Source of the DNA: an uncultured Burkholderiales bacterium
GTDB taxonomy: Bacteria > Pseudomonadota > Gammaproteobacteria > Burkholderiales > Burkholderiaceae_C
DNA length: 64,000 bases
Reading direction: 5' to 3'
Assembly (NCBI GenBank): GCA_903886485.1
Contig: CAISMH010000019.1
Coordinates: 1-64,000, forward strand
The position numbers were made by a program, and so were the translations under genes. Below the pieces are notes generated by a model. It saw only the letters and a list, made by a program, of their open reading frames with translations, was not told the origin of the DNA and made no database searches. Below, in pieces: positions 11,868 through 37,154 of the stretch; the first letter of the stretch is position 1; the number at the start of each line of letters is the position of its first letter.

Positions 11868-12935
11868 TTACTGCGCAGGATCGCGCATGTCCCAACGGAT
11901 GGCATCGATGGCAGCCAAAAGCTCTGGCTTCAAGGTGGTTCCCCACGCATCCAAATCAGCGTCCAATTGGGCCAACGAGGTCACGCCAATGATGGTGCTG
12001 GCCACTTGCCACTTGGTGTAACAAAACGCCAGCGCCATTTGCGTAGGGGTCATGCCGTGCTCTAGGGCAAGCGCGTTGTAGCGACGCGCTGCCACCAAGG
12101 CCTCGGGGCGTCCCCAGCGTTGCTTGCGCACGCTCTCGTACCCAGAAATGCGCGCACCTTGGGGTGCATCTGGGCCAGTGGTACCACTGGCGTCGTACTT
12201 GCCGGTCAGCAAGCCAAAGCCCAGCGGCGAATAGGCCAACAAAGACACATTCAAACGGTGACAGGTTTCATCCAAGCCGTTTTCGTAGCTGCGGTTGATC
12301 AAACAGTACGGGTTTTGCGTGGTGGCCACGCGTGGCAACCCATGTTGCTCGGCCAAGCGTACAAACTCATGCACACCATAGGGCGTTTCATTGGACAAAC
12401 CCACATGACGCACCTTGCCTGATTTGACCAGTTGCGCCAGCGCATCGAGTTGTTCATGGATCGTGGTTTGTGAGTTCTCTTTGCTGGGCTCGTAATACAC
12501 GCCACCAAAGGCGGGCACATGGCGCTCAGGCCAGTGGATTTGGTAGAGGTCAATCACATCGGTTTGCAAGCGGCGCAAGCTGCCTTCGCAGGAGGTGATG
12601 AAGTCTTTGGCAGTCAAGCCCATGTGGTCACGAACCCAAGGCATGCCGCGTGAGGGGCCTGCGACTTTGGTCGCCAACACCAGCTTTTGACGTGCGCCTG
12701 GGTGCTTGGCAAACCAGTTGCCAATGATGGTCTCGGTGTGACCGCACGTCTCGGCCTTGGGCGGTACCGAATACATCTCAGCCGTGTCGATGAAGTTCAC
12801 ACCACGCGCCAACGAGTGGTCGAGGATGGCGTGTGAGTCGGCTTCGTTGACTTGCTCACCAAAGGTCATGGTGCCTAGGCAAATGGGGGTGACGTGCAAA
12901 TCGCTGGTACCCAGCTGAACAAAGGGAAATGTCAT
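11868..12935 (-). CDS. Aldo/keto reductase (Tas-like)
   Basis: NADPH-dependent oxidoreductase with a TIM-barrel fold. The start chosen is the ATG at 12935 (355 aa, MTFPFVQLGTS); a longer reading from 13037 adds 34 atypical residues. The catalytic Asp-Tyr pair is in FIDTAEMYSVPP and the Lys in LATKVAG; the His is in IHWPERH. The insertion PPKAETCGHTE and length match the Tas/YghZ-like group. Substrate unknown. It lies 58 nt downstream of the acyl-CoA synthetase on the same strand. Confidence 0.87.
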   Translation of the reverse strand: MTFPFVQLGTSDLHVTPICLGTMTFGEQVNEADSHAILDHSLARGVNFIDTAEMYSVPPKAETCGHTETIIGNWFAKHPGARQKLVLATKVAGPSRGMPWVRDHMGLTAKDFITSCEGSLRRLQTDVIDLYQIHWPERHVPAFGGVYYEPSKENSQTTIHEQLDALAQLVKSGKVRHVGLSNETPYGVHEFVRLAEQHGLPRVATTQNPYCLINRSYENGLDETCHRLNVSLLAYSPLGFGLLTGKYDASGTTGPDAPQGARISGYESVRKQRWGRPEALVAARRYNALALEHGMTPTQMALAFCYTKWQVASTIIGVTSLAQLDADLDAWGTTLKPELLAAIDAIRWDMRDPAQ

Positions 12936-21382: not shown

Positions 21383-21408
21383 ACGCGCAATTGCGGTCGC
21401 AAACCCTC

Positions 21409-21437
21409 TTGACAGACTTTGCGTTTTCGCAGATATT
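21409..21437 (+). promoter_or_regulatory. Sigma-70-like promoter of the aryl-CoA catabolic operon
   Basis: A perfect -35 box TTGACA (21409-21414) and a -10 box GATATT (21432-21437, four of six matches) are separated by 17 nt. The palindromic operator begins at the next base, so a bound repressor would block the start site. Confidence 0.65.
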
Positions 21438-21455
21438 TATTTCAATATTGAAATA
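21438..21455 (+). promoter_or_regulatory. Palindromic operator, probably MarR-type
   Basis: TATTTCAATATTGAAATA is an 18-bp perfect palindrome directly after the -10 box. Size and AT-rich character fit MarR-family operators, and a marR gene lies inside the operon at 24640. A second copy with 15 of 18 identical bases is at 35930-35947. Confidence 0.7.
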
Positions 21456-21485
21456 TTCAATCAAAAAACAAAACTGGAGCGTTGC

Positions 21486-23840
21486 ATGAATATCGTCTGT
21501 ATTGGTGGCGGACCCGCTGGCTTGTACTTTGGCTTACTGATGAAAGCACGCTGGCCAGATCATCACATCACAGTGGTGGAACGCAACCTGCCCTATGACA
21601 CCTTTGGTTGGGGTGTGGTGTTCTCTGATGCCACGATGGACAACATGCGTGAATGGGATCGCACCACCGCCGACCAAATTCAAGAAGCCTTCAACCATTG
21701 GGATGACATTGAGCTGTTGTTCAAAGGTCGAACCATTCGCTCGGGCGGCCATGGCTTTGTGGGCATCGGACGTAAAAAACTCCTGAACATTCTGCAAGCC
21801 CGTTGCGAGGCCTTAGGCGTGATTTTGAAGTTTGATTGCGACGTCAACTCAGACCTCGATTTTCCTGAGGCAGACCTGATCATTGCAAGCGATGGCATCA
21901 ACTCCAAGATTCGCACGCAGTATGAATCCGTCTTCAAGCCCGACATTGTGACGCGGCCCAATCGCTATATCTGGCTGGGTACGCATCGCCAATACGACGC
22001 TTTCACCTTTGATTTCCAAAAAACCGAACACGGTTGGTTTCAGGCACACATTTACAAGTTCGACGATCAGACATCGACGTTCATTGCCGAATGTCCCGAG
22101 CATGTGTGGCTGGCACATGGGCTGGACAAAGCAGATCAAGCCGAATCGATCGCGTTTTGCGAAAAAATATTTGCTGACAACTTGCAAGGCGCCAAGTTGA
22201 TGACGAACTCACGACATCTGCGCGGCTCGGCCTGGCTGAACTTTCAACGCGTGGTGTGTGAGCACTGGTGGCTCAAGAACAAACACGGTAGCCATGTGGT
22301 GCTGATGGGAGATGCCGTGCACACCGCACACTTCGCCATTGGTTCGGGTACCAAACTCGCCTTAGAAGATGCAATTGAACTGACACGCCAATTTGAAATT
22401 CATGGGTGTGAGGCTGGACAGATTTCGCAGGTATTGACGGACTACCAAGAGAGCCGCCGCATTGAAACGCTCAAAATTCAAAATGCAGCCTGGAATGCCA
22501 TGGAATGGTTCGAGGTCTGTGGCGAGCGTTACTGTGATCAACTCGAACCAGAGCAGTTCATGTACTCAATGTTGACGCGCAGTCAGCGCATCAGCCACGA
22601 GAATCTGCGTCTGCGCGACAAGAACTGGTTAGATGGTTATGAGCACTGGTTCGCCCAACGTGCTTTCGATCCAGCGACATCCGCGGCAGCGCCTACACCA
22701 CCGATGTTCACCCCTTACACCGTGCGCTCTGTCACGCTCAAAAATCGTGTGGTGGTCTCACCAATGGCGCAATACTCAGCGCAAGACGGCTTGCCCTCCG
22801 ACTTCCACTTGGTTCACCTCGGCGCGCGTGCGATGGGCGGAGCTGCCATGGTATTTGCCGAAATGATTTGTGTGAGTGCAGATGCGCGTATCACCCCCGG
22901 CTGCCCTGGTCTTTGGAACGATGCACAAACACTCGCCTGGAAAAAAATTGTCGACTGGGCGCATCACCACAGCAATGCACGTATGGCTGCTCAACTGGGC
23001 CATGCAGGCGCTAAAGGCTCCACGCGACGCGCGTGGGACGGTATTGACCAGCCGCTGACAACCGATGACACCGAGGCTAATTGGCCCTTGATCAGCGCTT
23101 CACCGCAGCAATACTTGGCGGGTGTGAGCCAAACCTCACGCGCCATGACACAGGCAGACATGGCCCGCGTGACGGCCGACTTTGTAGCCTCCACCCAGCG
23201 CGCTGCTGAAGCTGGCTTTGACTGGTTGGAATTGCATTGCGCACATGGCTATTTGTTGTCGAGCTTTATTTCGCCGCTGACCAACCACCGCACCGACGCC
23301 TATGGCGGTAGCCTAGAAAACCGACTGCGTTACCCCCTCGAGGTGTTTGCCGCTGTGCGCGCCGCTTGGCCAAAGCACCTGCCCATGTCCGTGCGCATTT
23401 CTGCCCATGATTGGGTGGATGGTGGCATCACCCCAAGCGATGCGGTGCAAATTGCAAAAGCCTTCAAGGCAGCAGGCGCCGATGTGATTGACTGCTCGTC
23501 AGGTCAAGTTAGCAAGCAAGAAAAACCAGTGTTTGGCCGCATGTTTCAAACCCCGTTTTCTGACCGTATTCGCCAAGAGGCTGGCATCGCCACCATCGCG
23601 GTGGGGGCCATCAGCGAAGCCGATCATGTGAACAGCATCATCGCGGCTGGACGTGCAGACTTGTGTGCCGTTGCGCGACCGCATTTGGCCAACCCGGCTT
23701 GGACCTTGACCGAAGCCGCCCGCATTGGCTACCAAGCCATCGTCTGGCCTAAGCCATACATCTCGGGCAAGCGACAACTGGAAGCTAATTTTGAACGTGC
23801 CGCCGCGCAGTCGGCTGCTGCGAATCAAGGAACTAAATGA
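21486..23840 (+). CDS. Bifunctional anthraniloyl-CoA/salicylyl-CoA monooxygenase-reductase
   Basis: Fusion of two flavoenzymes (784 aa). Residues 1-390 are a group A FAD monooxygenase, with GGGPAGLYFG at 7-16 and GDAVHTAHFAIGSG near 276. Residues 405-775 are an Old Yellow Enzyme-type FMN reductase (SPMAQYSAQDG, GHAGAKGSTRRAW, HCAHGYLLSSFISPLTNHR). This architecture is that of Azoarcus evansii 2-aminobenzoyl-CoA monooxygenase/reductase, which hydroxylates and dearomatises anthraniloyl-CoA, and of proteins annotated as salicylyl-CoA 5-hydroxylase/oxidoreductase. The ligase, hydratase, dehydrogenase and RidA genes downstream favour an amino substrate. TGGAG precedes the ATG. Its stop overlaps the next gene as ATGA. 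Confidence 0.9.
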   Translation: MNIVCIGGGPAGLYFGLLMKARWPDHHITVVERNLPYDTFGWGVVFSDATMDNMREWDRTTADQIQEAFNHWDDIELLFKGRTIRSGGHGFVGIGRKKLLNILQARCEALGVILKFDCDVNSDLDFPEADLIIASDGINSKIRTQYESVFKPDIVTRPNRYIWLGTHRQYDAFTFDFQKTEHGWFQAHIYKFDDQTSTFIAECPEHVWLAHGLDKADQAESIAFCEKIFADNLQGAKLMTNSRHLRGSAWLNFQRVVCEHWWLKNKHGSHVVLMGDAVHTAHFAIGSGTKLALEDAIELTRQFEIHGCEAGQISQVLTDYQESRRIETLKIQNAAWNAMEWFEVCGERYCDQLEPEQFMYSMLTRSQRISHENLRLRDKNWLDGYEHWFAQRAFDPATSAAAPTPPMFTPYTVRSVTLKNRVVVSPMAQYSAQDGLPSDFHLVHLGARAMGGAAMVFAEMICVSADARITPGCPGLWNDAQTLAWKKIVDWAHHHSNARMAAQLGHAGAKGSTRRAWDGIDQPLTTDDTEANWPLISASPQQYLAGVSQTSRAMTQADMARVTADFVASTQRAAEAGFDWLELHCAHGYLLSSFISPLTNHRTDAYGGSLENRLRYPLEVFAAVRAAWPKHLPMSVRISAHDWVDGGITPSDAVQIAKAFKAAGADVIDCSSGQVSKQEKPVFGRMFQTPFSDRIRQEAGIATIAVGAISEADHVNSIIAAGRADLCAVARPHLANPAWTLTEAARIGYQAIVWPKPYISGKRQLEANFERAAAQSAAANQGTK

Positions 23841-24643
23841 CGATGACCAAGAACAACTCCCACCTTCAGCAGCGTCATGCGGTCGTCACTGGCGCCTCGC
23901 GTGGCATAGGCGCAGCCATTGCACGTCAACTCGCACAAGCGGGTGCACAGCTGACCCTGATCGGTAGATCACGCGAGGGCTTAGACAACATAGCCGCCGA
24001 ACTCCAAGCCGACACACGGGTCCATATCGAAGCGGTGGACGTGACCGACAACGCGGGCGTTCAAGCCGCTATTCAGAGAGCCGAACAGGCCCTCGGACCA
24101 ATTCATATCTTGGTCAACAACGCGGGCCAAGCCATCAGCCAAACTTTTGACAAAACGGACTTTGCCTTGTGGCAAGCGATGATCGACATCAACCTCACCG
24201 GCACCTACATCTGCACCCATGCTGCTCTGCCTTCGATGCTCAAAGCGGCAGCCACGGGCACGCCCGGACGCATCATTCACATCGCCAGCACCGCTGGCCT
24301 GCAAGGCTACGCCTACGTCAGCGCTTACACGGCTGCCAAGCACGGCGTGATCGGACTCACAAAGGCCTTGGCCCTCGAGCTCGCACGTAAAAATATCACC
24401 GTGAATGCGCTGTGTCCGGGCTACACCGAGACAGACATCGTGCAGACCGCGATAGGCAACATCGTCGCGAAAACTGGCAAGACCGCGCAACAAGCACGTG
24501 ACACGCTGGCTTCTGGCAATCCGCAACAACGCTTGGTGCAGCCCGAAGAAATCGCCCAAGCGGTGATTTGGCTGTGCAGCCCAGGCAGCGGTGCGATCAA
24601 CGGCCAAGCCATTGCCATCGACGGTGGGGAGTTAGCAGGATGA
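23837..24643 (+). CDS. SDR family NAD(P)-dependent 3-hydroxyacyl-CoA dehydrogenase-like protein
   Basis: A 268-aa short-chain dehydrogenase with TGASRGIG near residue 18, NNAG near 94, and the catalytic Ser and YTAAK motif near residues 150-166. By position it should oxidise the 3-hydroxyacyl-CoA formed by the enoyl-CoA hydratase of the same operon; that is inference. It overlaps the monooxygenase stop (ATGA) and has AAGGA upstream. An alternative ATG lies two codons later. Confidence 0.85.
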   Translation: MTMTKNNSHLQQRHAVVTGASRGIGAAIARQLAQAGAQLTLIGRSREGLDNIAAELQADTRVHIEAVDVTDNAGVQAAIQRAEQALGPIHILVNNAGQAISQTFDKTDFALWQAMIDINLTGTYICTHAALPSMLKAAATGTPGRIIHIASTAGLQGYAYVSAYTAAKHGVIGLTKALALELARKNITVNALCPGYTETDIVQTAIGNIVAKTGKTAQQARDTLASGNPQQRLVQPEEIAQAVIWLCSPGSGAINGQAIAIDGGELAG

Positions 24644-25152
24644 CCTCTAGCGCAGAATTGCAAGACCAAGAACTGCGGGCCCATGCGGACCACCACGCCT
24701 CTTTGAGGCTGTGGCTTCGCTTCCTGTCGTGCACCACGCTGGTCGAAGAAACGATACGCCAAAAGCTGCGCGAGCAATTCGACATCACTCTGTCACGTTT
24801 TGATTTGATGGCGCAGCTCGAACGGCACCGTGAGGGGCTCACCATGGGAAATCTGTCCCGCCGCATGATGGTGAGTGGCGGCAACATCACCGTGATCGTG
24901 GACCAACTGGAAAAAGAACAGCTGGTACAGCGTCAAGTCGCGGCCACCGACAGGCGTTCATACCGCGTCATGCTCACTGCATCAGGACGCAAATCATTTG
25001 CACGCATGGCCGTCGCCCATGAACGTTGGGTGGTTGATCTGTTCAGCGGACTCGATGTGCACGAACAAGAACAACTCAATCATTTATTAGGCCATCTGAA
25101 AACTGGCATCCATCGCCACAACGCCACCCTCAGTGCAAAGGAAACCCCATGA
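24640..25152 (+). CDS. MarR family transcriptional regulator
   Basis: A 170-aa winged-helix regulator. The DNA-binding part spans about residues 40-115 ([23 protein letters not shown], then a wing with [12 protein letters not shown]). Members that control aromatic CoA pathways often bind the aryl-CoA thioester as inducer. It overlaps its neighbours on both sides (ATGA at each end), so it is made together with the enzymes and is likely autoregulated through the palindrome at 21438-21455. The ligand is not shown by the sequence. Confidence 0.88.
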
Positions 25153-26009
25153 GCCAGCGCTATTTGCCCGGTCAGCCACACCAACTGCCACGCCACAGAA
25201 AAGGCTTGGCCCACTACCAAGGCCAGCATGTGTTGTTCACGTTCAAAGAGGGGGTGGCCACCATCGCGCTGAACCGACCAGAGCGCAAAAACCCTTTGTC
25301 GTTTGAGTCGTATGCAGAGCTCAGAGATCTGTTTCGTGCCATGTGCGACGCGGACGATGTGCATGCCATTGTGATGACCGGTGCCGGCGATAACTTCTGC
25401 TCTGGCGGAGATGTTCATGAAATCATTGGCCCGCTCACGCAGCTGGACATGCCAGGCCTGCTGAGCTTCACCCGCATGACAGGTGATGTGATCAAAGCGA
25501 TGCGCGCCTGCCCACAACCCATCATCGCGGCAATTGACGGCATCTGTGCGGGCGCGGGCGCACTGCTGGCACTGGCTTCTGACCTGCGCTATGGCACTGA
25601 GCGCAGCAAAACCTATTTCTTATTTAACAAAGTAGGGCTGGCTGGCTGCGACATGGGCGCCTGCGCGTTGTTGCCGCGCGTGATTGGACAAGGACGCGCC
25701 TCGGAACTGCTTTACTCTGGCCGCGGCTTGCAAGGTGGAGAAGCCGAACGCTGGGGTTTTTACAACCGCCTCTGCACCCCAGAGGATGTGTTGGCACAAG
25801 CGCAAGCCATGGCCCATGAGCTGGCGAGCGGCCCCACCTTCGCCAACGGCATGACGAAGAAGATGCTGCAACAAGAATGGAACATGGGGGTGGACGAAGC
25901 CATTGAAGCAGAAGCCCAAGCCCAAGCCATTTGCATGATGACCAACGACTTTCATCGCGCTTACCACGCCTTTGTCGCCAAGCAAAAACCTGAGTTTGAG
26001 GGAGATTGA
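25149..26009 (+). CDS. Enoyl-CoA hydratase/isomerase family protein
   Basis: Crotonase-fold enzyme of 286 aa. The oxyanion-hole segments are [10 protein letters not shown] near residue 80 and [13 protein letters not shown] near residue 135. Like the enoyl-CoA hydratases found with 2-aminobenzoyl-CoA and salicylyl-CoA pathways, it has an N-terminal extension of about 25 residues. It probably hydrates or opens the alicyclic CoA intermediate formed by the upstream monooxygenase/reductase. ATGA overlap with marR. Confidence 0.85.
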
Positions 26010-26010
26010 C

Positions 26011-27177
26011 ATGAGCGCCAATCGCCAGATGGACTGGCCTTTTTTTGATCCGCACCATCGCCAACTCAAGCAAAACTTGAGCGAATGGGCATCCGCACAC
26101 ATCCACCCGACCCACGCCGACGACGCCAACGTGGACGCTGAATGCCAACACTTGGTGCGCCAACTGGGAGGGGCTGGCTGGCTGCGCCATGCCATCGCTG
26201 GCAAGGCTTATGGAGCCTTGAACGAGAGCATCGACACCCGCAGCATTTGCCTGCTGCGTGAAGAACTGGCGTGGCACCATGGTCTGGCTGATTTTGCGTT
26301 TGCCATGCAAGGTTTAGGTTCTGGTGCCATCAGCTTGCTTGGCTCAGAAGCACAAAAGCAACACTACCTGCCCCGCGTGGCGAAAGGTGACGCAATTGCG
26401 GCATTTGCCCTCAGTGAACCTGATGCGGGCTCTGATGTAGCCGCCATGCGTTGCAAAGCCCAGCGTGTGGGCGATGACTACGTGTTGAATGGCGAGAAGA
26501 CTTGGATTTCCAATGGCGGCATCGCTGACTTCTATGTGGTGTTTGCACGCACCGATGACGCCCCCGGCGCCAAAGGCATCAGCGCCTTCATCGTCGACGC
26601 CAATTGCCCAGGTTTAGAAATTGCCGAGCGCATCGATGTGGTGGCACCCCATCCATTGGCACGTTTGCGTTTTGTCGATGTACGTATTCCAGTCACCCAA
26701 CGCGTTGGAGAGAGTGGCGGCGGTTTCAAAGTGGCCATGATGACCTTGGATGTCTTTCGCACCTCGGTCGCAGCCGCCGCACTCGGGTTTGCTGCGCGCG
26801 CGCTGCATGAATCCTTGCAATGGGTGAAGCAGCGCCAGATGTTTGGCCAGACTTTGGCAGATTTTCAAATCACGCAAACCAAGTTGGCTGACATGGCCAC
26901 CCTGCTGGATGCCGCCCGATTGTTGACCTACCGTGCCGCGTGGCTGCGCGACCAAGGGCAACGCATCACGCAAGAAGCAGCGATGGCCAAGTTGACTGCT
27001 ACAGAAAATGCCCAGCGCATCATTGATATGGCGGTGCAACTGCACGGTGGAATGGGCGTGAGGAAGGGTTGCATTGTTGAATCGCTGTACCGTGAAATCC
27101 GCGCGCTGCGCATTTATGAAGGTGCGACAGAGGTGCAACAACTCATCATCGGGCGCGAGCTACTCAAATCGAATTGA
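26011..27177 (+). CDS. Acyl-CoA dehydrogenase
   Basis: FAD flavoprotein of 388 aa that makes the alpha,beta double bond in an acyl-Co[21 protein letters not shown] is the flavin-binding signature near residue 130. The C-terminal helical part has QLHGGMGV and a [13 protein letters not shown] segment that contains the usual catalytic Glu position. The start MSANRQMD at 26011 has GAGGGAG upstream. It is one base after the hydratase stop, within the operon. It would act in the beta-oxidation-like lower part of the pathway. Confidence 0.88.
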
Positions 27178-27184
27178 GGTTTCT

Positions 27185-28852
27185 ATGCCATCCCACGCAC
27201 TACTTCCTTCGTCGCATGAAGACACGTATGTCTACGAGCAATTGCCGCCCAGGGATCAATGGCCTGAATTCATCTTTGACAGGCCAGAGCTTCAGTACCC
27301 AGACTTGGTCAATGTCGCCTCAGAGCTGATCGATATCCATGTCGCGCAAGGCCACGGCGACCGACCCGCGCTACATGGGTACGACGGTGACGCACCTTTC
27401 ACGTGGACTTATGCAGAACTTCAAGACCGAGTGGACCGCATCGCCCATGTGCTGACTCAGGACATGGGGTTGGTCTCAGGCAACCGCTTGCTCTTGCGCG
27501 GCACCAATACCCCGATGATGGCCGCCTGTTTTTTGGCGGGCTTGAAAGCGGGGTTGGTGATGGTGCCCACCATGCCTTTGCTGCGCGCCACAGAACTCAA
27601 GCAAGTCATTCAAAAGGCCAAAATCACCGCTGCGCTGTGTATGCATCACCTGGCCGACGAACTTGGCTATTGCCAAGACAAGCGCCATTCGCAGTACGCC
27701 CCCGAACTCAAGCAAGTGCTTCACTTTGGCCTCAAAGATGGCAGCACAGGTTTAGAAGGCTTGATGCTCGGACACGCTAGGCCCTTCTCTGCCCACCCCA
27801 CCTCACGCGATGATGCATGCTTGATTGCTTTCACCAGTGGCACCACCGGCAGCCCCAAGGGCACGGTGCACTTTCAGCGCGATGTGCTGGCCATGTGCGA
27901 CTTGTTTCCGCGCCACATCCTGAACATGACACCCTCGGATGTGGTGTGCGGCACGCCCCCCATCGCCTTCACTTTTGGCTTGGGTGGATTGCTTGCCTTC
28001 CCTTTACGGTATGGCGCCTCCACGGTGTTGTTAGAAAAGCACACACCAGAGTCCTTGCTTCAAACGATCGCTACGTACCGCGTCACGCAGTGCTACACAG
28101 CACCCACTTTTTATCGACAAATGGCGCACTTGGCGCACCAGTTTGATCTAGGAAGCTTGCGCCATCCGGTGTCTGCGGGTGAGGCCTTGCCAGATGCCAC
28201 TCGCCAGCTGTGGAAAGAAAAAACAGGTATCGACATCACCGATGGCATTGGTGGCACCGAGATGATTCATATCTACATCTCCAGTGCGGGCGCTGAAGTG
28301 CGAGCGGGCAGCATCGGACGAGTGGTCCCTGGCTACACCGCACAAATTGTGGATGACGACATGCAAGCCGTGGCTCCCGGCGTACCTGGCCGCTTAGCCG
28401 TGCGTGGGCCCACGGGCTGCCGATATTTGAACGATGCAAGGCAAACCAACTACGTGAGAGACGGATGGAACTTACCGGGCGACACGTTCTCGATGGATGC
28501 CGATGGATATTTTTATTACGTCGCCCGCAATGACGACATGATCATCTCAGCGGGTTACAACATTGCCGGACCAGAGGTCGAAAGCGCTTTGATGCAACAC
28601 CCTGCGGTTGCTGAGTGTGGTGTCATCGGCGTGAGCGATCCAGAGCGCGGACAGGTTGTGATGGCCTATGTCTCGCTTAAGCCAGAATTTGTTGGCGACG
28701 ATGAGATGGTTGAGATACTGCAAAATTTTGTGAAGCAACAGATTGCACCGTTCAAGTACCCCAGACGCATTCAGTTCATGCCGACCTTGCCACGCACTGA
28801 AACTGGCAAATTGCAGCGTTTTCGATTGCGTCAACTCGCTGCAGATCATTAA
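27185..28852 (+). CDS. 2-Aminobenzoate/benzoate-CoA ligase
   Basis: AMP-forming aryl-CoA synthetase of 555 aa. The ATP motif FTSGTTGSPKGTVHF is near residue 218. The core GGTEMIHIYISS is typical of the benzoate-CoA ligase group, in which family members read an aromatic carboxylate. YYVARNDDMIISAGYNI forms the hinge, and the catalytic Lys is in TETGKLQRFRL. It has GAGG ahead of the ATG and lies 7 nt after the acyl-CoA dehydrogenase. Anthranilate is the preferred substrate guess because of the operon partners; benzoate, salicylate or a substituted anthranilate remain possible. Confidence 0.87.
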   Translation: MPSHALLPSSHEDTYVYEQLPPRDQWPEFIFDRPELQYPDLVNVASELIDIHVAQGHGDRPALHGYDGDAPFTWTYAELQDRVDRIAHVLTQDMGLVSGNRLLLRGTNTPMMAACFLAGLKAGLVMVPTMPLLRATELKQVIQKAKITAALCMHHLADELGYCQDKRHSQYAPELKQVLHFGLKDGSTGLEGLMLGHARPFSAHPTSRDDACLIAFTSGTTGSPKGTVHFQRDVLAMCDLFPRHILNMTPSDVVCGTPPIAFTFGLGGLLAFPLRYGASTVLLEKHTPESLLQTIATYRVTQCYTAPTFYRQMAHLAHQFDLGSLRHPVSAGEALPDATRQLWKEKTGIDITDGIGGTEMIHIYISSAGAEVRAGSIGRVVPGYTAQIVDDDMQAVAPGVPGRLAVRGPTGCRYLNDARQTNYVRDGWNLPGDTFSMDADGYFYYVARNDDMIISAGYNIAGPEVESALMQHPAVAECGVIGVSDPERGQVVMAYVSLKPEFVGDDEMVEILQNFVKQQIAPFKYPRRIQFMPTLPRTETGKLQRFRLRQLAADH

Positions 28853-28867
28853 CGCAAAGGACAACCC

Positions 28868-29263
28868 ATGAGGAAAGTTTTACAACCCGAAGGATGGCTC
28901 GAACCTAAGGGCTATGCCAATGGCATTGAAGCTCGGGGTCGGCAAATTTATGTGGCCGGCATGATCGGCTGGAATGGCCAAGCCCAATTCGAATCCGATG
29001 ACTTTGTGGCGCAATGCAAACAAGCTCTACAAAATATCGTGGACACCTTGGCTTGTGCGCAAGCGGGGCCTCAGCACATTGTGCGCATGACCTGGTATGT
29101 CAAAGATAAAAAAGAGTACCTCAGCAGAGCCCGCGAACTCGGACAGGCCTACCAACAGGTGATCGGTCGCCACTACCCAGTGATGGCCTTGGTGCAAGTG
29201 GCTGATTTGGTGGAAGACCGTGCTTTGGTCGAGATCGAAGCCACGGCTGTCGTCCCAGACTGA
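28868..29263 (+). CDS. RidA/YjgF family protein
   Basis: A 131-aa member of the RidA family, which hydrolyses reactive enamines and imines to ketones plus ammonia, or in aromatic pathways deaminates aminomuconate-type compounds. The C-terminal arginine-containing signature is altered: ALVEIEATAVVPD holds the Glu motif, but the usual RxxV..P arginine is not obvious. In this operon it could release the amino group from the dearomatised aminocyclohexene-CoA. AAAGGA precedes the ATG. It is the last gene of the operon and converges on the LysR gene. Confidence 0.82.
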   Translation: MRKVLQPEGWLEPKGYANGIEARGRQIYVAGMIGWNGQAQFESDDFVAQCKQALQNIVDTLACAQAGPQHIVRMTWYVKDKKEYLSRARELGQAYQQVIGRHYPVMALVQVADLVEDRALVEIEATAVVPD

Positions 29264-29276
29264 AGCCTTACTTCTT

Positions 29277-30203
29277 TCAATACTTCCCTGCGTGCTTTTT
29301 GAAGTGTTCCATGAACGCTTGCGCAGCGACGGGAAGTTTGGCCTTGGCCGGTGTGAGGGCCACGATTTCACGGGCCACGACGGGCCCCACCAACGCCACG
29401 GTCGCAATCGACAATACCTGCGAGGTAGCTTGGCCGCGTGAAATGGCGTAAGACGGCAGGATCGAGACGCCTTCACCTTCCGCCGCCAAGCCCAAGGCTG
29501 TCGCGACATGCGACACCTCATAGGCAGGTTTGAGGTGCTTGCTCCAAGTGGAAATAGTTTTGTCCACCAAGGAACGTAAGCCGCTGCCATGGCGCATCAA
29601 GATCAGCGGCTCTTCGAGCAACCTCGGCCATGCCACCTCACGCATTTGCGCGAGCGGATGGTCCACATGGCAAGCCACCATCAATTTGTCGACATACAAC
29701 AGGTGCGCCGACAGATCAGCCGCATCGCTGTTGGCGGTGCAAACCGCCATATCAACTTCACCTCGCCGCACCAGGTCGGGCAAGGAATCAATCGGCGCGT
29801 CCATCAGCACCACACTCACTTGGGGATGTTGCGCACGAAAACTGGCAATCACCTTCGGAAATAAAGCACTGGCCAACAAGGGAGAGGCGGCAACGCGCAG
29901 CTGCGATGCTTTGAGGCGCTGCGACTGCTGCAGGCTCGCGATGCCGCTGTCCAACTGCGTGAACACCTGCTCCACCGTCGGCAAAAACTGTTGACCCGCA
30001 TCGGTCAAAACCACACGACGGGTGGTGCGCTCGAACAAACGCATGCCCAAATCGTCCTCCATGCTGCGAATCAACATGGACAGTGCCGAGGGGGTAAGGT
30101 GCAGCCGCGTTGCTGCGCGGGTCATACTGGACTCTTGCGCCACAGCCAAGAAAGCACGTAATTGGCGAAGGCTCAGGTGAGACGTGGGGGGTTTGAGTGG
30201 CAT
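29277..30203 (-). CDS. LysR family transcriptional regulator
   Basis: A 308-aa LysR-type regulator. The winged-helix DNA-binding domain fills residues 11-70 (LRQLRAFLAVAQESSMTRAATRLHLTPSALS read in parts), followed by the two-lobed effector-binding domain. It is divergent from the molybdenum-hydroxylase operon, with 111 nt between the starts. It likely controls that operon and itself through the inverted repeat at 30237-30267. Effector unknown. Confidence 0.9.
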   Translation of the reverse strand: MPLKPPTSHLSLRQLRAFLAVAQESSMTRAATRLHLTPSALSMLIRSMEDDLGMRLFERTTRRVVLTDAGQQFLPTVEQVFTQLDSGIASLQQSQRLKASQLRVAASPLLASALFPKVIASFRAQHPQVSVVLMDAPIDSLPDLVRRGEVDMAVCTANSDAADLSAHLLYVDKLMVACHVDHPLAQMREVAWPRLLEEPLILMRHGSGLRSLVDKTISTWSKHLKPAYEVSHVATALGLAAEGEGVSILPSYAISRGQATSQVLSIATVALVGPVVAREIVALTPAKAKLPVAAQAFMEHFKKHAGKY

Positions 30204-30267: not shown

Positions 30268-30314
30268 TTTTATCGTTGGGTGAATCAACCATTATTTGCT
30301 CCAATCAACGCGTG

Positions 30315-32432
30315 ATGCAGCCAACCGCCACCTCCCCCACCTCCCCCACCTTACGCCGTGAAGACGCGGCGCTGCTGCGCGGTGCGGCATGCTTTGGTCA
30401 AGATGTGGTGTTGCCAGGTGCCCTGCACTTGGCTTTTGTGCGCAGCACACAAGCCCATGCACGCATCACACACATCCATGCCTCAGCAGCGCTCACAATG
30501 CCCGGCATACGCGCTGTGTTGTGCGCCAAAGATTTGGGTCTGCGCACCATGCCCGCCATCAACCCCCTGCTGCCCTTGCTGCAAGAAGTGCGCTTCGATT
30601 TGCTCGCGCATGAAACCGTGGACTACGTGGGACAGGCAGTTGCAGTGGTTGTTGCCGAGACCCTGCAACAAGCTAGACATGCTGCAGCGCAGGTGCAATT
30701 GAGCTTACATCCCCTTGCTGTCAGCAGCGACTTTGACACACAAAGCGCGGTGGTCACACGCACACAACACCACCACGGCGAACTGCCCCACCATGCCCCC
30801 TGCGCCAGCGTGCAATTAAAGGTACCCCGACTTACCGCGATGCCGATGGAGCCGCGCGCATGCAGTGCGTCTTGGGATGAGGACACGCAGCGGCTCACCT
30901 TCAGGCTGGCGACTCAAACGCCCTCCAGGGCTCAAGCCGATGCGGCACATGTGCTGGGGATTGATGTGGCACAAGTGCGTGTGATCTGCCCGGACGTCGG
31001 CGGTGCGTTTGGTGCTCGTGCCTCCGTCAGCCCCGAAGATCTGCTGGTGGCGCTGACGGCAAAGCATTTACGCAGCACGGTGCGCTGGACGTCTTCGCGT
31101 TCGGAGGATTTCTTAGCAGGCATGCAAGGCCGCGGCGCTCAGCTTGAAGGGCAGTTGTGGTTAGACGAACAAGGCCGCATGCAAGGGCTCGCAGCCCAGT
31201 TGCATTTCACCTTAGGTGCATGGCTGCCCTACTCGGGCGTGGTGCCTTTGCGCAATGCGGCGCGCATCTTGCCTGGGCCGTATGCGCTGAATCATTTAAA
31301 AATTGACGGAATTGCCACACGCGCCAACACAGCGCCCGTGAACATTTACCGTGGCGCTGGGCGGCCAGAAGCTGCCTTGCTGATGGAGACCTTGATCGAC
31401 ATAGCAGCGCGCCGCCATGGCATGGACCCTGTGGATGTACGTTTGAAAAACTTAATACCCAAACAAGCCATGCCCTTCACGACAGCGAACGGCGAAGTGC
31501 TCGATTCAGGAGACTACGCACAAGCACTGACCCAAGCCTGTGACCGCTTTGGCTATGCGCATGAGCGGGCAGAACAGCTCAGACGCCGTGCGCAAGGTGA
31601 ATGCATAGGCCTTGGCATCGCCATGTACATTGAACCTTGTGGTCAGGGGTGGGAATCAGCATGCGTCACGCTCCACAGCGATGGACGCGTGACGGTGGCC
31701 AGCGGCTCTCCCGCTCAAGGTCAAGGACATGCCACGACTTATGCGCAGATCGCCGCTGACAGTTTGGGATGTGAGGTGCAGCAGGTTGAAGTACTGATGG
31801 GGGACTCACACACCTGCCCTGTGGGTATCGGCGCCTTGGCCAGTCGCAGCACTGCCATCGCTGGCAGCGCCATCGTGCAAGCCTGCGCAAATGTGCAGGC
31901 ACAAGCACGGCAAGGTGCCGCCTACCCCATCACCGCTGAGGAGCGATTCACTGCCCAAGAGGCATGGAGTTATGGCTGCGTCATGCTGCGTTTGAGCATC
32001 GATAGAGACACGGGGAAACCCACCATCGAGCGCTTGGTCTGGGTTGATGATGCGGGCCATATTGTCAAGCCCGTCTTGGCACACGGACAGCTCATCGGTG
32101 GTGCCGCCCAAGGTCTGGGACAAGCGCTGATGGAGCAACTCATTTATGACGAGCAGGGTCAGCTTGTCACCGGCTCTTTGATGGACTACGCCATCCCACG
32201 CGCCAGCGACATGCCAGACATCGACATCTTTTCCATGCAGACACCCAGCCCTCACAACTTGCTGGGCGCCAAGGGTGTGGGCGAAGCCGGATGCATTGGC
32301 ATCCCCGCCGCCTTGATGAATGCCGCACGCGATGCCTTGTCACCCCAAGGCGAAACGGATCTTCAGTTTCCACTCACGCCAGAAAAAATCTGGCTGGCCA
32401 TGCACACCACTCAACCGAAGGAAAAATCATGA
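30315..32432 (+). CDS. Molybdenum hydroxylase large subunit (CoxL/xanthine dehydrogenase family)
   Basis: Molybdopterin-cytosine-dinucleotide subunit that hydroxylates a carbon, usually next to a ring nitrogen. The protein is 705 aa. The a/b hammerhead fold is followed by CPDVGGAFGAR near residue 225. NIYRGAGRPEA near residue 345 resembles the AYRGAGR motif of form II CoxL, not the AYRCSFR of true CO dehydrogenase. The catalytic Glu is in GAKGVGEAGCIG near residue 660. Compared with relatives, about 60 residues appear to be missing after QAQARQG (near residue 535). ATG 30315 begins the operon; the stop overlaps the next gene (ATGA). Substrate unknown. Confidence 0.85.
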   Translation: MQPTATSPTSPTLRREDAALLRGAACFGQDVVLPGALHLAFVRSTQAHARITHIHASAALTMPGIRAVLCAKDLGLRTMPAINPLLPLLQEVRFDLLAHETVDYVGQAVAVVVAETLQQARHAAAQVQLSLHPLAVSSDFDTQSAVVTRTQHHHGELPHHAPCASVQLKVPRLTAMPMEPRACSASWDEDTQRLTFRLATQTPSRAQADAAHVLGIDVAQVRVICPDVGGAFGARASVSPEDLLVALTAKHLRSTVRWTSSRSEDFLAGMQGRGAQLEGQLWLDEQGRMQGLAAQLHFTLGAWLPYSGVVPLRNAARILPGPYALNHLKIDGIATRANTAPVNIYRGAGRPEAALLMETLIDIAARRHGMDPVDVRLKNLIPKQAMPFTTANGEVLDSGDYAQALTQACDRFGYAHERAEQLRRRAQGECIGLGIAMYIEPCGQGWESACVTLHSDGRVTVASGSPAQGQGHATTYAQIAADSLGCEVQQVEVLMGDSHTCPVGIGALASRSTAIAGSAIVQACANVQAQARQGAAYPITAEERFTAQEAWSYGCVMLRLSIDRDTGKPTIERLVWVDDAGHIVKPVLAHGQLIGGAAQGLGQALMEQLIYDEQGQLVTGSLMDYAIPRASDMPDIDIFSMQTPSPHNLLGAKGVGEAGCIGIPAALMNAARDALSPQGETDLQFPLTPEKIWLAMHTTQPKEKS

Positions 32433-33409
32433 AGTACAAAAAATCAGAAGCCAAAGAATATGCCCGCGAACACATGGTAGGTGTGTGGGCCGCCAACCTC
32501 ACGCCCTTTGATGACGCACTGAAGCTCGATGAAAAAGCCTACCGCGAGAACTTGAACCACTGGATCAACACACTCAACTTGGGCGGTTTGTTCATCGCGG
32601 GTAAACAAGCCGAGTTCTTTTCGATGAGCTTGGCAGAGCGCAAACGGTTGATGGAATTGTCCGTAGAAGTGGCTTACGAAGCAGGCAATCGTGATGGCAA
32701 AGGACATTGCGGCATCGTCACCTCTTGCTCAGACACCAACTTGGATGTGGTGCTGGACTTGGCCAAACATTCACAAGCCATTGGCGCCGACTACGTGATC
32801 GTGCACAGCCCTGTGCTGCACTTTGGCGCCGACACGGACGAAACCATTTACGAGTACTACCGATATTTGTCGGAAAAAATTGACATCGGCTTGGCGATGT
32901 GGAACCACCCCGACTGTGGCTATGTGATGAGTCCAGAGCTCTGCGCCCGCATCGCAGACTTGCCTAACGTGGTCGCGATCAAATACAGCACAGACCGCGA
33001 AAAGTACAAACGCCTCACCGAGATGGTGGGCCACAAAATTCATGTCAGCAACCCAGATGAGCCTGATTGGCTAGAAAACATCTTGGAATACGGCTGGAAA
33101 CTCTACCTCTGCTCGACGCCTCCGTTCTTACTGCAGACAGCCGCAGACCAACGCATGAACGCTTACACCCAACTGGCTTTTGCAGGCAAGTTTGACGAAG
33201 CGCGCCAAGTACGCGACAGCTTGAACTCCGTGCGTGAGGCCTTTAAGCAATCCAAACCCAAAGGCAAACCGCAAGCGCATGCCAAGTATTGGCAAGAACT
33301 CATTGGCCAGCACGGTGGGCCCGTGCGTCGCCCTTTGTTGCAACTCACCGAAGCGGAGCGTGAAGTCACAAGACAAGCCGTGGCCCGCTCAGGTCTGAAA
33401 TTGTCCTAA
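32429..33409 (+). CDS. Dihydrodipicolinate synthase (DapA/NAL) superfamily lyase
   Basis: A 326-aa TIM-barrel protein of the class I aldolase DapA superfamily. The Schiff-base lysine is expected in VVAIKYSTD near residue 190 and the early GVWAANLTPFDD segment matches the family start. At 326 aa it is longer than DapA (about 292), with a C-terminal extension, in the size range of the hydratase-aldolases that cut pyruvate from aromatic side chains. It does not show close NahE-type sequence. It is inserted between the large and small subunits of the hydroxylase, with ATGA coupling, so it should act on the same pathway. It is not the lysine-pathway DapA. Substrate unknown. Confidence 0.8.
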   Translation: MKYKKSEAKEYAREHMVGVWAANLTPFDDALKLDEKAYRENLNHWINTLNLGGLFIAGKQAEFFSMSLAERKRLMELSVEVAYEAGNRDGKGHCGIVTSCSDTNLDVVLDLAKHSQAIGADYVIVHSPVLHFGADTDETIYEYYRYLSEKIDIGLAMWNHPDCGYVMSPELCARIADLPNVVAIKYSTDREKYKRLTEMVGHKIHVSNPDEPDWLENILEYGWKLYLCSTPPFLLQTAADQRMNAYTQLAFAGKFDEARQVRDSLNSVREAFKQSKPKGKPQAHAKYWQELIGQHGGPVRRPLLQLTEAEREVTRQAVARSGLKLS

Positions 33410-33414
33410 ATTTC

Positions 33415-33897
33415 GTGCACACCGTTCCACTCACCCTGCATCTGAATCATCGAGCCGTGTCGCTCGAGGTGGCACCATCTTCCCTGCTGATTGATGTGTT
33501 GCGGGAACAATGCCAACTCACAGGGTCACACCAAGGCTGCGACACAGCGCAATGCGGTGCCTGCACGGTACTGGTCAATGACAAAGCCATCAAATCATGC
33601 AACCGATTGGCCCTGCAGTGTGCTGATCAAACAGTGCTGACCATTGAGGGCGTGGCACCCAATGAACAAGCTTTACATGTGATGCAGCAATGCTTCAGCC
33701 AGCATCACGCCCTGCAATGCGGCTTTTGCACACCTGGATTTGTGATGCGGGCCTTGGCCATGGTGCACGAAGATGTGCCGGCCACGCCTGAAGCGGTGCG
33801 TGACGCCTTGTCTGGCAACCTTTGTCGTTGCACAGGTTATGAAGGCATCGTCGAGGCGATTTGCGAAGCCTTGGCGCTTCTGAGGCTGGAGCGCTGA
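33415..33897 (+). CDS. Molybdenum hydroxylase small [2Fe-2S] subunit
   Basis: A 160-aa iron-sulfur subunit (CoxS family). The plant-ferredoxin-like cluster ligands are in GCDTAQCGACTV with a later Cys in KSCNR. The second cluster ligands are in CGFCTPGF and NLCRCTGYEG. It passes electrons from the Mo site to FAD. A GTG at 33415 is used as start, as no earlier ATG exists and the ferredoxin domain begins at once. It lies 5 nt after the DapA-like gene and overlaps the next by TGATG. Confidence 0.92.
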   Translation: MHTVPLTLHLNHRAVSLEVAPSSLLIDVLREQCQLTGSHQGCDTAQCGACTVLVNDKAIKSCNRLALQCADQTVLTIEGVAPNEQALHVMQQCFSQHHALQCGFCTPGFVMRALAMVHEDVPATPEAVRDALSGNLCRCTGYEGIVEAICEALALLRLER

Positions 33898-35315
33898 TGT
33901 CCAACACCGACTACCTGCGGCCGCGTTCGATCGCTGAAGTCTCACAGTGCTTGGCATCGTTTCCAGAGGCGCAACTGTTGGCGGGTGGGCAGAGTTTGTT
34001 GGCGGCATGGCGACTTGGGCTTTGCAAGCCCACACATTTTGTTGATCTGCAAGACGTCCCTGACTTGAACGACATTCGCTCAGAAGATGGGGCGCTTTGG
34101 ATAGGTGCCATGTGCACGCATGCGCAAATTGCGGCCAGTCCGCTGATCGTCTCGCAAATTCCCATGCTCCGTGTCTTAGCGCAGGGCATCGCTGACGCCC
34201 AAATTCGCAACGTGGGCACAATCGGTGGGGCTTTGGCCAATAACGACCCAGCGGCATGCTGGCCCGCGGGCGTCTTAGCCATGGATGCCAGCATCGTGAC
34301 CAACCATCGCGTGATCCCTGCTGATGCATTTTTCGAGGGTCTTTTCAGCACGGCGTTACAAAACGGCGAATGGATTCTGGGCGTTCGCTTCCCACGCGTG
34401 GCATGGGCGCACTATTTGAAATTTGAGCAAGCAGCTTCGCGATTTGCATTGGTCGGCGTGGCTGTGGCGCGATCCACGCGCGGGCAAGTCCGCGTCTCGA
34501 TTACAGGCTTAGGCCAAGGCGTCACGCGCTGGACGGATGCAGAAACTGCCCTCACTTCACAGTGGGGCGTGCACGCCTTGAACGAGCTAGCCTTTGATGC
34601 AGAGGCTGCACAAACCGATGTCCATGCCAGTGGGTTCTATCGCGCGCATTTGGTATCTGTGTTAACCCGTCGCGCGGTCGCCATCGACACCGGTGAGCCA
34701 TCCCTGATGCCGCCGACTCGCACGCCTGTCTTGCGCGAAGCGCCTACGCCTTCACAAGGCCGCCTGCGGGGTAGCAGTCTGCTACAAGCTTCCCCTGATC
34801 GGGTGTGGCAGCAGTTGCTAGACCCCGCTGTGCTTCAACGCTGTATTCCCGGCTGTGCAGCCATGACACTCACCCAACCTGAGCACTACCAAGCGCTCAT
34901 CAAAGTTGGCTTAGGCCCCATTTCTGCAACTTTTACAACACAGATTGCGCTCTTCACCGAGCCACCTCAGGCCTCGCAAAGCCCCATGCGCTGTCGATTG
35001 GTTCTCACCGGCGAAGCAGGTGCTTTGGGTGAAGGCAAAGCCACTGTCTTCGTGCAACTGGATACTGTCCATGACCCACAAACGAAACACATCAACACGC
35101 GTCTGAATTGGCAAGCCACGCCAGAATTGACGGGCAAGATAGCGCAACTGGGCAACCGGCTGATGGACGCTACCGCGCTCAATTTGAGTCAACAATTTTT
35201 CAACCGTTTCAGTGGGGTGCTATCTGGCGACACCACACCTCCAAACCAAAAGTTTTCCCTTTATGCTTTGACCACCAATGTCAAGCAATGGTTTCTGCGT
35301 TTCTTTGAAAGGTAA
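33897..35315 (+). CDS. Fused molybdenum hydroxylase FAD subunit and CoxG domain
   Basis: A 472-aa fusion. Residues 1-285 are the FAD-binding medium subunit (CoxM), with the FAD motifs LLAGGQSLLAAWR near residue 29 and NVGTIGGALANNDPAA near 110. Residues about 300-450 are a CoxG/SRPBCC domain (LRGSSLLQASPDRVWQQLLDP, RCIPGCAAM, TGEAGALGEGKATV). CoxG in CO dehydrogenase anchors the enzyme to the membrane and helps electron transfer. The linker is Pro-rich. The normal arrangement is two genes. Overlaps the small subunit gene by one base. Confidence 0.87.
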   Translation: MSNTDYLRPRSIAEVSQCLASFPEAQLLAGGQSLLAAWRLGLCKPTHFVDLQDVPDLNDIRSEDGALWIGAMCTHAQIAASPLIVSQIPMLRVLAQGIADAQIRNVGTIGGALANNDPAACWPAGVLAMDASIVTNHRVIPADAFFEGLFSTALQNGEWILGVRFPRVAWAHYLKFEQAASRFALVGVAVARSTRGQVRVSITGLGQGVTRWTDAETALTSQWGVHALNELAFDAEAAQTDVHASGFYRAHLVSVLTRRAVAIDTGEPSLMPPTRTPVLREAPTPSQGRLRGSSLLQASPDRVWQQLLDPAVLQRCIPGCAAMTLTQPEHYQALIKVGLGPISATFTTQIALFTEPPQASQSPMRCRLVLTGEAGALGEGKATVFVQLDTVHDPQTKHINTRLNWQATPELTGKIAQLGNRLMDATALNLSQQFFNRFSGVLSGDTTPPNQKFSLYALTTNVKQWFLRFFER

Positions 35316-35927
<612 letters not shown>

Positions 35928-35929
35928 TT

Positions 35930-35947
35930 TATTTCAAGATTAAAATT
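35930..35947 (+). promoter_or_regulatory. Second copy of the MarR-type operator before the LIV transporter
   Basis: TATTTCAAGATTAAAATT matches the palindrome at 21438-21455 at 15 of 18 positions, in the same orientation. A -10-like CATAAT (35923-35928) lies one base upstream, the same geometry as at the first site. A separate 12-bp palindrome AAAATTAATTTT (35942-35953) overlaps it. No clear -35 box is visible. Confidence 0.6.
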
Positions 35948-35981: not shown

Positions 35982-37154
35982 ATGATGAAACTAGCGGTCA
36001 AGTCTTTCTCCCTCGCCTGCGTTCTCGCACTCACCAGTGTGGGCAGCTACGCGCAACAACCTTTGAAGATTGGTTTTTTGGGGACGCTCTCGGGCCCCGC
36101 TGGTGCCCTTGGCCAAGACCAATACGATGCCTTCATGCTGGGCATTGAGCATTTGGGCGGTAAGCTGGGCAACAGCGCGGTGCAAGTGCTCAAAGAAGAT
36201 GACCAACTCAAGCCAGACTTAGGTGTTGAGTTGGCCAAGAAATTGATTGAGAAAGAAAAAGTCAACATCATCACGGGCGTGACCTTCTCCAACGTCATGA
36301 TGGCGGTTCATAAGCCGATCACCGACGCTGGCGTCTTCTTGATTGGCTCTAACGCAGGCCCCACACCGATCACGGGCAAGGGTTGTAGCCCCATGTATTT
36401 CTCTACCTCTTGGAACAACGACTCCTTGCACGAATCCATGGGCGCTTATGCACGCGAGCAAGGCTTCAAGCGTGTGTATTTGATGGCGCCCAACTACCAA
36501 GCGGGTAAAGATGCGTTGGCAGGTTTCAAAACCCAATACAAAGGTGCGGCCCTTGACGAGGTCTATACCCAAATTAACCAGCCAGACTACTCGGCTGAAA
36601 TTGCCCAAATGCAAGCGGCCAAGCCTGATGCGGTGTATGTGTTTTATCCAGGCGGCATGGGCGTGAACTTTGTGAAGCAATATCAACAAGCAGGCTTATT
36701 AGGTAAGGTGCCACTGTTGTCCGCCTCGACCGTAGACGGCACCACGCTCCCCGCGCTCAAAGACATTGCCTTGGGCGTCATCACGAGCTCGCCTTACAGC
36801 CCAGACATTGACAATCCACAAAACAAAAAATTCGTCGACGACTTCCGCAAAAAATTCAACCGCGTGCCCTCGTTGTATGCAGCACAAAGCTACGACGCTG
36901 CCATGCTGTTGAACTCTGCCTTGCTCAAAACACAGGGAAAAGTAGATCGCGAACAGTTTCGTGCCGCTCTGAAACAAGCCAACTTCAAATCAGTCGCGGG
37001 CCCCTTCAAGTTCAACAACAACCAGTTCCCGATTCGTAACTTCTACCGCGTGGACGTCGCCAAAGACAGCAGCGGTCAGGCTGCCTTGGTGAACAAAGGT
37101 ATCGTGCTGAAAGATCACGCCGACGCGTACGCCAGCCAGTGCACCATGAACTGA
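35982..37154 (+). CDS. LIV-type ABC transporter substrate-binding protein
   Basis: Periplasmic binding protein of 390 aa (peripheral-binding type 1 fold). A signal peptide ends at SYAQQ near residue 24. Mature regions GFLGTLSGPAGALGQDQYDAF and FLIGSNAGPTPITGKGC bind the ligand. Relatives in Burkholderiales import aromatic acids such as benzoate or anthranilate-like compounds. The start is one of two adjacent ATGs (35982 or 35985). AGAGG lies upstream. It leads a five-gene transporter under the operator at 35930. Confidence 0.9.
   Translation: MMKLAVKSFSLACVLALTSVGSYAQQPLKIGFLGTLSGPAGALGQDQYDAFMLGIEHLGGKLGNSAVQVLKEDDQLKPDLGVELAKKLIEKEKVNIITGVTFSNVMMAVHKPITDAGVFLIGSNAGPTPITGKGCSPMYFSTSWNNDSLHESMGAYAREQGFKRVYLMAPNYQAGKDALAGFKTQYKGAALDEVYTQINQPDYSAEIAQMQAAKPDAVYVFYPGGMGVNFVKQYQQAGLLGKVPLLSASTVDGTTLPALKDIALGVITSSPYSPDIDNPQNKKFVDDFRKKFNRVPSLYAAQSYDAAMLLNSALLKTQGKVDREQFRAALKQANFKSVAGPFKFNNNQFPIRNFYRVDVAKDSSGQAALVNKGIVLKDHADAYASQCTMN

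Follow-up and report, generated by a model that had tools for sequence, protein, structure and literature searches.

What controls the aryl-CoA operon in a 64,000-nucleotide stretch of DNA from an uncultured Burkholderiales bacterium (hereafter the window), and does the palindrome at its start serve as an operator? A sequence-only reading had placed a perfect 18-bp palindrome there, behind a consensus −35 and a −10 hexamer at 17-nt spacing, in an operon with its own MarR gene. All of these are found in the window, with the qualification that the −10 agrees with the consensus at only 4/6 positions:

21409-21414, + strand: −35 hexamer TTGACA, identical in 9/9 of the closest promoters (window included)
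21432-21437, + strand: −10 hexamer GATATT, 4/6, with a mean pairwise identity of 80% across nine promoters
21438-21455, unstranded: operator 1, TATTTCAATATTGAAATA, a perfect 18-bp palindrome and predicted MarR dimer site
21475-21479, + strand: TGGAG, read as the likely ribosome-binding site before the ATG at 21486
21486-23840, + strand: bifunctional flavin monooxygenase/OYE reductase (NCBIfam salicylyl-CoA 5-hydroxylase/oxidoreductase, 1349.8 bits, cut-off 1078)
23837-24643, + strand: SDR-family dehydrogenase
24640-25152, + strand: MarR-family repressor gene, within the operon that it is predicted to control
25149-26009, + strand: enoyl-CoA hydratase family protein (477.4 bits, cut-off 330)
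26014-27177, + strand: acyl-CoA dehydrogenase
27185-28852, + strand: aryl-CoA ligase, benzoate-CoA ligase-like (335.2 bits, under the subfamily cut-off of 375.25)
28868-29263, + strand: Rid-family imine/enamine deaminase, the last operon gene (under the family cut-off)

The operon and its promoter

The genes are joined by 4-bp overlaps or short gaps, and the MarR gene, which overlaps both of its neighbours by 4 bp, encodes Pfam MarR and MarR_2 domains above their cut-offs (PF12802, 43.2 bits, cut-off 27; PF01047, 40.2 bits, cut-off 24.6). Taken together, the ligase, monooxygenase, β-oxidation-type enzymes and Rid protein fit a 2-aminobenzoyl-CoA pathway better than the salicylate–gentisate route, and the first gene product is probably a 2-aminobenzoyl-CoA monooxygenase/reductase; as the NCBIfam name says salicylyl-CoA, however, this is an assignment that we infer. 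Gene-cluster work has been reported for Azoarcus evansii. At one relative's locus (L231, 3033-8557), a monooxygenase relative (60%) occurs without MarR or operator, next to what by eye read as open reading frames for a gentisate-dioxygenase-like cupin, a fumarylacetoacetase-type hydrolase and a nitrilase; this locus may represent a true salicylyl-CoA branch.

The −35/−10 pair matches the consensus at 10/12 hexamer positions (the −35 perfectly) with 17-nt spacing, and as the palindrome begins right after the −10, the start point is expected inside it (predicted at approximately 21444). Palindromicity by itself is unremarkable: the window holds two perfect 18-bp palindromes (the other is GCCAGTGGTACCACTGGC at 12174-12191), and first-order Markov sequences hold 0.45 on average, with at least one in 37% of cases. 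The weight comes from position and conservation. No match to the exact TATTTCAATATTGAAATA word within 3 mismatches occurred in 100 shuffles of the window, and in the whole 2.49-Mb genome only two places lie that close to operator 1, namely 21438-21455 and 35930-35947.

Conservation of the predicted operator among relatives

When the window is set beside eight close promoters, in which the spacing is fixed and the columns are hence directly comparable, identity across the nine amounts to 100% in the −35, 48% in the spacer, 80% in the −10 and 95% in the operator, with 64% in the next 18 bp and 29% in the region before the −35.

The same site emerges without supervision. In a training set of 80 operon loci around MarR orthologues, the sequence before the monooxygenase gene was long enough in 67, and a palindromic expectation-maximisation search on these 67 promoters (window excluded) returned a single 18-bp palindromic motif (TAnTTnA..TnAAnTA, that is, TAGTTTAAGCTTAAACTA-like sites) with a log-likelihood of 547.9, compared with 45-52 on four shuffled sets. 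Sequence before other operon genes (ECH, MarR and ACD) gave 222-362, but these stretches are a poor control because they are coding and homologous, and we therefore relied on shuffles and random windows. Scored with this motif, operator 1 (21.2 bits) and the site at 35930-35947 (18.6 bits) are the top two places in the window, the third reaching 12.8 bits; in 300 simulated 64-kb windows, the two scores were reached in 0.3% and 2.7% of runs, respectively. Genome-wide, 15 places lie within one mismatch of the core pattern, of which the 13 besides the two operators score at most 9.7 bits.

A site of at least 15 bits is present in 63/67 training promoters, the other four having none directly before the monooxygenase gene. 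The fixed motif was also applied to 80 loci retrieved separately from named records, 56 of them usable (in 23 the stretch lacked a monooxygenase start and in one the upstream sequence was too short): 44/56 promoters reached 15 bits, or 42/54 once the two near-duplicates by which the sets partly overlap were dropped, and among promoters unlike any training promoter the count was 36/48. The same threshold was reached by 0.94% of 1,600 random windows from the same loci and by 0.57% of 880 simulated promoters. Most of the 12 second-set promoters that fall short of 15 bits just before the monooxygenase gene appear to have their operon head farther upstream, where a site was demonstrated only in L155, whose operon begins with the CoA ligase and carries the site before that gene. 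In four loci whose MarR gene is separated from the monooxygenase gene (L187, L189, L190 and L211), a site of at least 17 bits lies 61-122 bp before MarR. Other missing-site loci have weaker sites (8-12 bits) or none, and re-examination of 20 loci found several without a strong site anywhere in the stretch.

Probable assignment of the operator to the MarR protein

Among 220 family genomes, the monooxygenase is present in 127 and MarR in 124 of these 127 (lists compared by eye), although the two genes are neighbours and their co-occurrence alone is thus no proof of regulation. None of the loci without MarR has a good site, the best score being 12.2 bits in the near-identical L141 and L142, in which MarR is missing exactly between the SDR and hydratase genes, followed by L232 (−11.7), L230 (−15.1) and L231 (−18.7). 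L229 (10.8) was not counted because its contig ends where MarR would be, and L233 has no monooxygenase start. The earlier proposal of repression at the start site, relieved by a pathway thioester or acid, is supported in part: footprint conservation, motif discovery, the joint presence and loss of MarR and operator, and another site with the same arrangement (see below) strongly support the predicted MarR binding there.

The AlphaFold model of the MarR protein (pLDDT 87.4) has the usual fold, with helices and two wing strands, and across 130-150 residues it aligns to numerous MarR structures at Z 15-17. In 44 MarR sequences, R40 is nearly invariant and R44 invariant. The top-ranking structures are of MarR proteins determined together with operator DNA (MftR, 8ylg, Z 17.3; PecS, 8yli, Z 17.1) in a VIA-align list that is a re-look at Foldseek matches alone, so that families absent from it may match as well. 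As is typical of an autoregulated operator, a palindromic site in the 16-18 bp range lies over the promoter of the operon that bears the regulator gene; such a site fits a dimer, as expected of the MarR family with its obligate homodimers, the model itself being of the monomer. By every computational sign, the operator is real, functional and of a well-known kind.

Other origins of the palindrome can be weighed against this assignment. The LysR protein (29277-30203, − strand) is the sole other regulator gene found in the cluster and might bind in place of MarR, yet its homologue is absent from L044, L046 and L047 (L045 has only a 27% match elsewhere), where sites of 15-25 bits persist, and in L141/L142 the site has decayed where MarR is missing; on this synteny we rule LysR out as the binder, a very improbable one. 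Even less credible is that the palindrome works as a hairpin in the leader RNA, through attenuation or mRNA stability. The isolated 18-mer does fold (−3.1 kcal/mol, z −4.1), but folding in the leader context, at z −0.40 and +0.24, rules this out; moreover, a start near 21444 would leave part of the stem untranscribed, and many relatives carry the motif where it would not be transcribed, either on the −35 or within the spacer. As for a functionless chance palindrome, which simulated windows contain at the frequency given above, conservation, motif discovery and fixed position contradict it, and we discard it on conservation as the least probable reading of all, even though palindromicity alone is not significant.

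A predicted second operator before the transporter operon

The second site, which the sequence-only reading did not contain, stands before an ABC-transporter operon:

35923-35928, + strand: extended −10 of the transporter promoter, read as TG-C-CATAAT
35930-35947, unstranded: operator 2, TATTTCAAGATTAAAATT, predicted second MarR site
35982-37154, + strand: periplasmic binding protein, heading a branched-chain-amino-acid-type ABC transporter operon (to approximately 41482)

Operator 2 repeats the layout of operator 1, lying directly behind the extended −10, with 34 bp separating it from the periplasmic binding protein's start codon. The −10 overlaps the stop codon of the preceding 3-hydroxyanthranilate-dioxygenase-like gene. 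The site is retained in all five close relatives that have the transporter gene start in sequence, in two of which the downstream flank is quite different, although part of this conservation may be inherited because the site adjoins coding sequence. In the close relative L034 (genome G071; MarR 86%), the operon site is decayed and no TTGAC stands in register, and operator 2 is intact.

Between the two predicted MarR-controlled operons, a gene group at 30276-35927, divergent from the LysR gene, encodes molybdenum hydroxylase subunits (the FAD-binding one, at 33897-35315, fused to a CoxG domain), a DHDPS-family aldolase and the 3-hydroxyanthranilate-dioxygenase-like cupin. No MarR site was found in front of this group, which perhaps forms a peripheral route supplying an aminobenzoate.

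Proposed mechanism and inducer

We consider it very probable that the palindrome serves as the operator for the MarR protein that the operon's third gene encodes. This protein would repress both its own operon, whose genes would break down an anthranilate-like aromatic acid, and the transporter operon at the start site, and would be released by a metabolite. A MarR dimer would sit on the palindrome with one recognition helix in each half-site; with the last part of the −10 and the start point covered in this way, RNA polymerase could not initiate. Since the MarR gene lies within the repressed operon, the whole operon, MarR included, would be autorepressed. The same protein would repress the transporter operon through 35930-35947. 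After the pathway substrate has been taken up and activated, a metabolite would bind MarR and release it, whereupon both operons would be expressed. Binding, repression, release and the ligand are thus what we infer from a site whose position, conservation, co-occurrence with MarR and second copy were computed directly.

The ligand is most likely 2-aminobenzoyl-CoA (anthraniloyl-CoA), with the free acid second. Both thioester and free-acid sensing occur among MarR proteins (PMC5487221). Release by either kind of ligand is proposed from the operon content and from CouR, HcaR and FerC as analogues, and CouR makes an aryl-CoA thioester plausible; prediction of the ligand from the fold neighbours proved not to be possible. 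That MarR binds as proposed but answers to the aromatic acid in its free form, be it anthranilate or a related compound, is a serious contender, if clearly the less probable one. Aromatic-pathway MarR proteins do bind free acids, as documented structurally for HcaR, for PcaV with protocatechuate and for Variovorax MarR_73/IadR with indole-3-acetate (PMC9613470 and PMC5487221), and the shared operator of the transporter would suit the sensing of an imported acid. Against this, it is the CoA thioester that CouR and FerC sense, CouR being unresponsive to the acid (PMC4737184, PMC5487221), and 124/127 genomes link MarR to the CoA section of the pathway. A CouR-type mode would mean that the CoA thioester releases the protein and that neither the acid nor CoA does so, with arginines equivalent to Arg36 and Arg38 of CouR.

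For an aryl-CoA signal, the nearest described counterpart is CouR of Rhodococcus jostii RHA1, which responds to p-coumaroyl-CoA. It is likewise a MarR repressor of a CoA-dependent aromatic pathway and has inverted-repeat boxes over σ70 promoters, with a box at several promoters of its regulon (PMC4737184); its box (cATTGA-5 bp-TCAATg) lies over the −35, whereas the 18-bp palindrome of the window lies at −10/+1. In the fold comparison CouR (5cyv) ranks only 40th (Z 15.3, 17% identity to the window MarR). Vibrio PecS uses 18-bp AT-rich palindromes such as TATCTTTATATTAAGATA (PMC6391409), which match the window site in length and outer bases. PecS controls a divergent efflux gene and responds to urate/xanthine, unlike a MarR gene inside a degradation operon. 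PecS and MftR share 25-27% sequence identity with the window MarR. Urate-responsive MarR proteins (PecS, MftR and HucR) carry a urate-binding residue set. IadR/MarR_73 of Variovorax (7kfo, 7kjl) is a MarR repressor of aromatic degradation from a related bacterial group, but it binds indole-3-acetate and serves another operon (PMC9613470); its identity to the window MarR is approximately 19% in the fold alignment. The closest solved structure by sequence is 3boq, a Silicibacter pomeroyi MarR from structural genomics (profile E 4.4e-32, nearly full length), whose records give no DNA site or ligand.

In the open-access papers searched, we found no described regulator of this pathway and no MarR regulator of a 2-aminobenzoyl-CoA operon. 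The present analysis yields a specific regulon for a pathway widespread in Burkholderiales, whose monooxygenase occurs in 127/220 family genomes, and predicts that one repressor is common to the degradation and uptake of an aromatic acid. Paraburkholderia xenovorans LB400 (L202) is one of the tractable relatives that suit the question of thioester versus acid, and the parts possibly useful to specialists are the second operator and the register shifts described below.

Position of the predicted operator among related promoters

Of 106 distinct site-bearing promoters, 35 have TTGAC within the operator; it precedes the operator by 10-12 bp in 34, by 25 bp in 9 and by 29 bp, as in the window, in 14, the remaining 14 having another arrangement or none. 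These registers track branches of the MarR tree, with approximately 12 changes. We suggest, tentatively and with prospects just short of even, that an orthologous line of repressors moves a kept 18-bp operator among three discrete registers on a fixed TTGAC promoter (the −35, the −35/−10 spacer, and −10/+1 as in the window), with recognition-helix residue 85 tracking the four central bases (V with ATAT, P with GGCC and T mostly with AGCT). When tabulated, this covariation is striking; with 96 MarR rows placed on a tree, however, contrasts between residue 85 and the central bases amount to one to four independent pairs on supported branches, too few to reach significance, and the covariation of helix and operator is therefore only suggestive. 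Three registers among orthologous repressors are the less expected part of this picture; if it is true, the family would form a natural series on operator position versus repression and on drift of MarR specificity without loss of the regulon.

In the 10-12 bp group, the start codon follows the operator by no more than 10 nt in 25/34 promoters, which implies leaderless or near-leaderless messages. In L059, L061, L119 and L126, the start codon lies 7-10 nt after the operator, whose right end overlaps the likely −10, and transcripts from promoters of this type are probably leaderless.

A further palindromic motif, GGGWWWNCCC (consensus CGGGTTAACCCG), occurs in the relatives, with a log-likelihood of 127.7 compared with 15-17 on permuted sequence, and in many of them it stands upstream of the MarR operator, mostly at a distance of approximately 11, 21 or 28-34 bp. 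The window's own genome has 35 near-matches to AGGGTTTNCCCT, versus 19 for the reversed control. This motif is possibly an activator site, and the window keeps only a half-site of it, AAACCCT, at 21401-21407.
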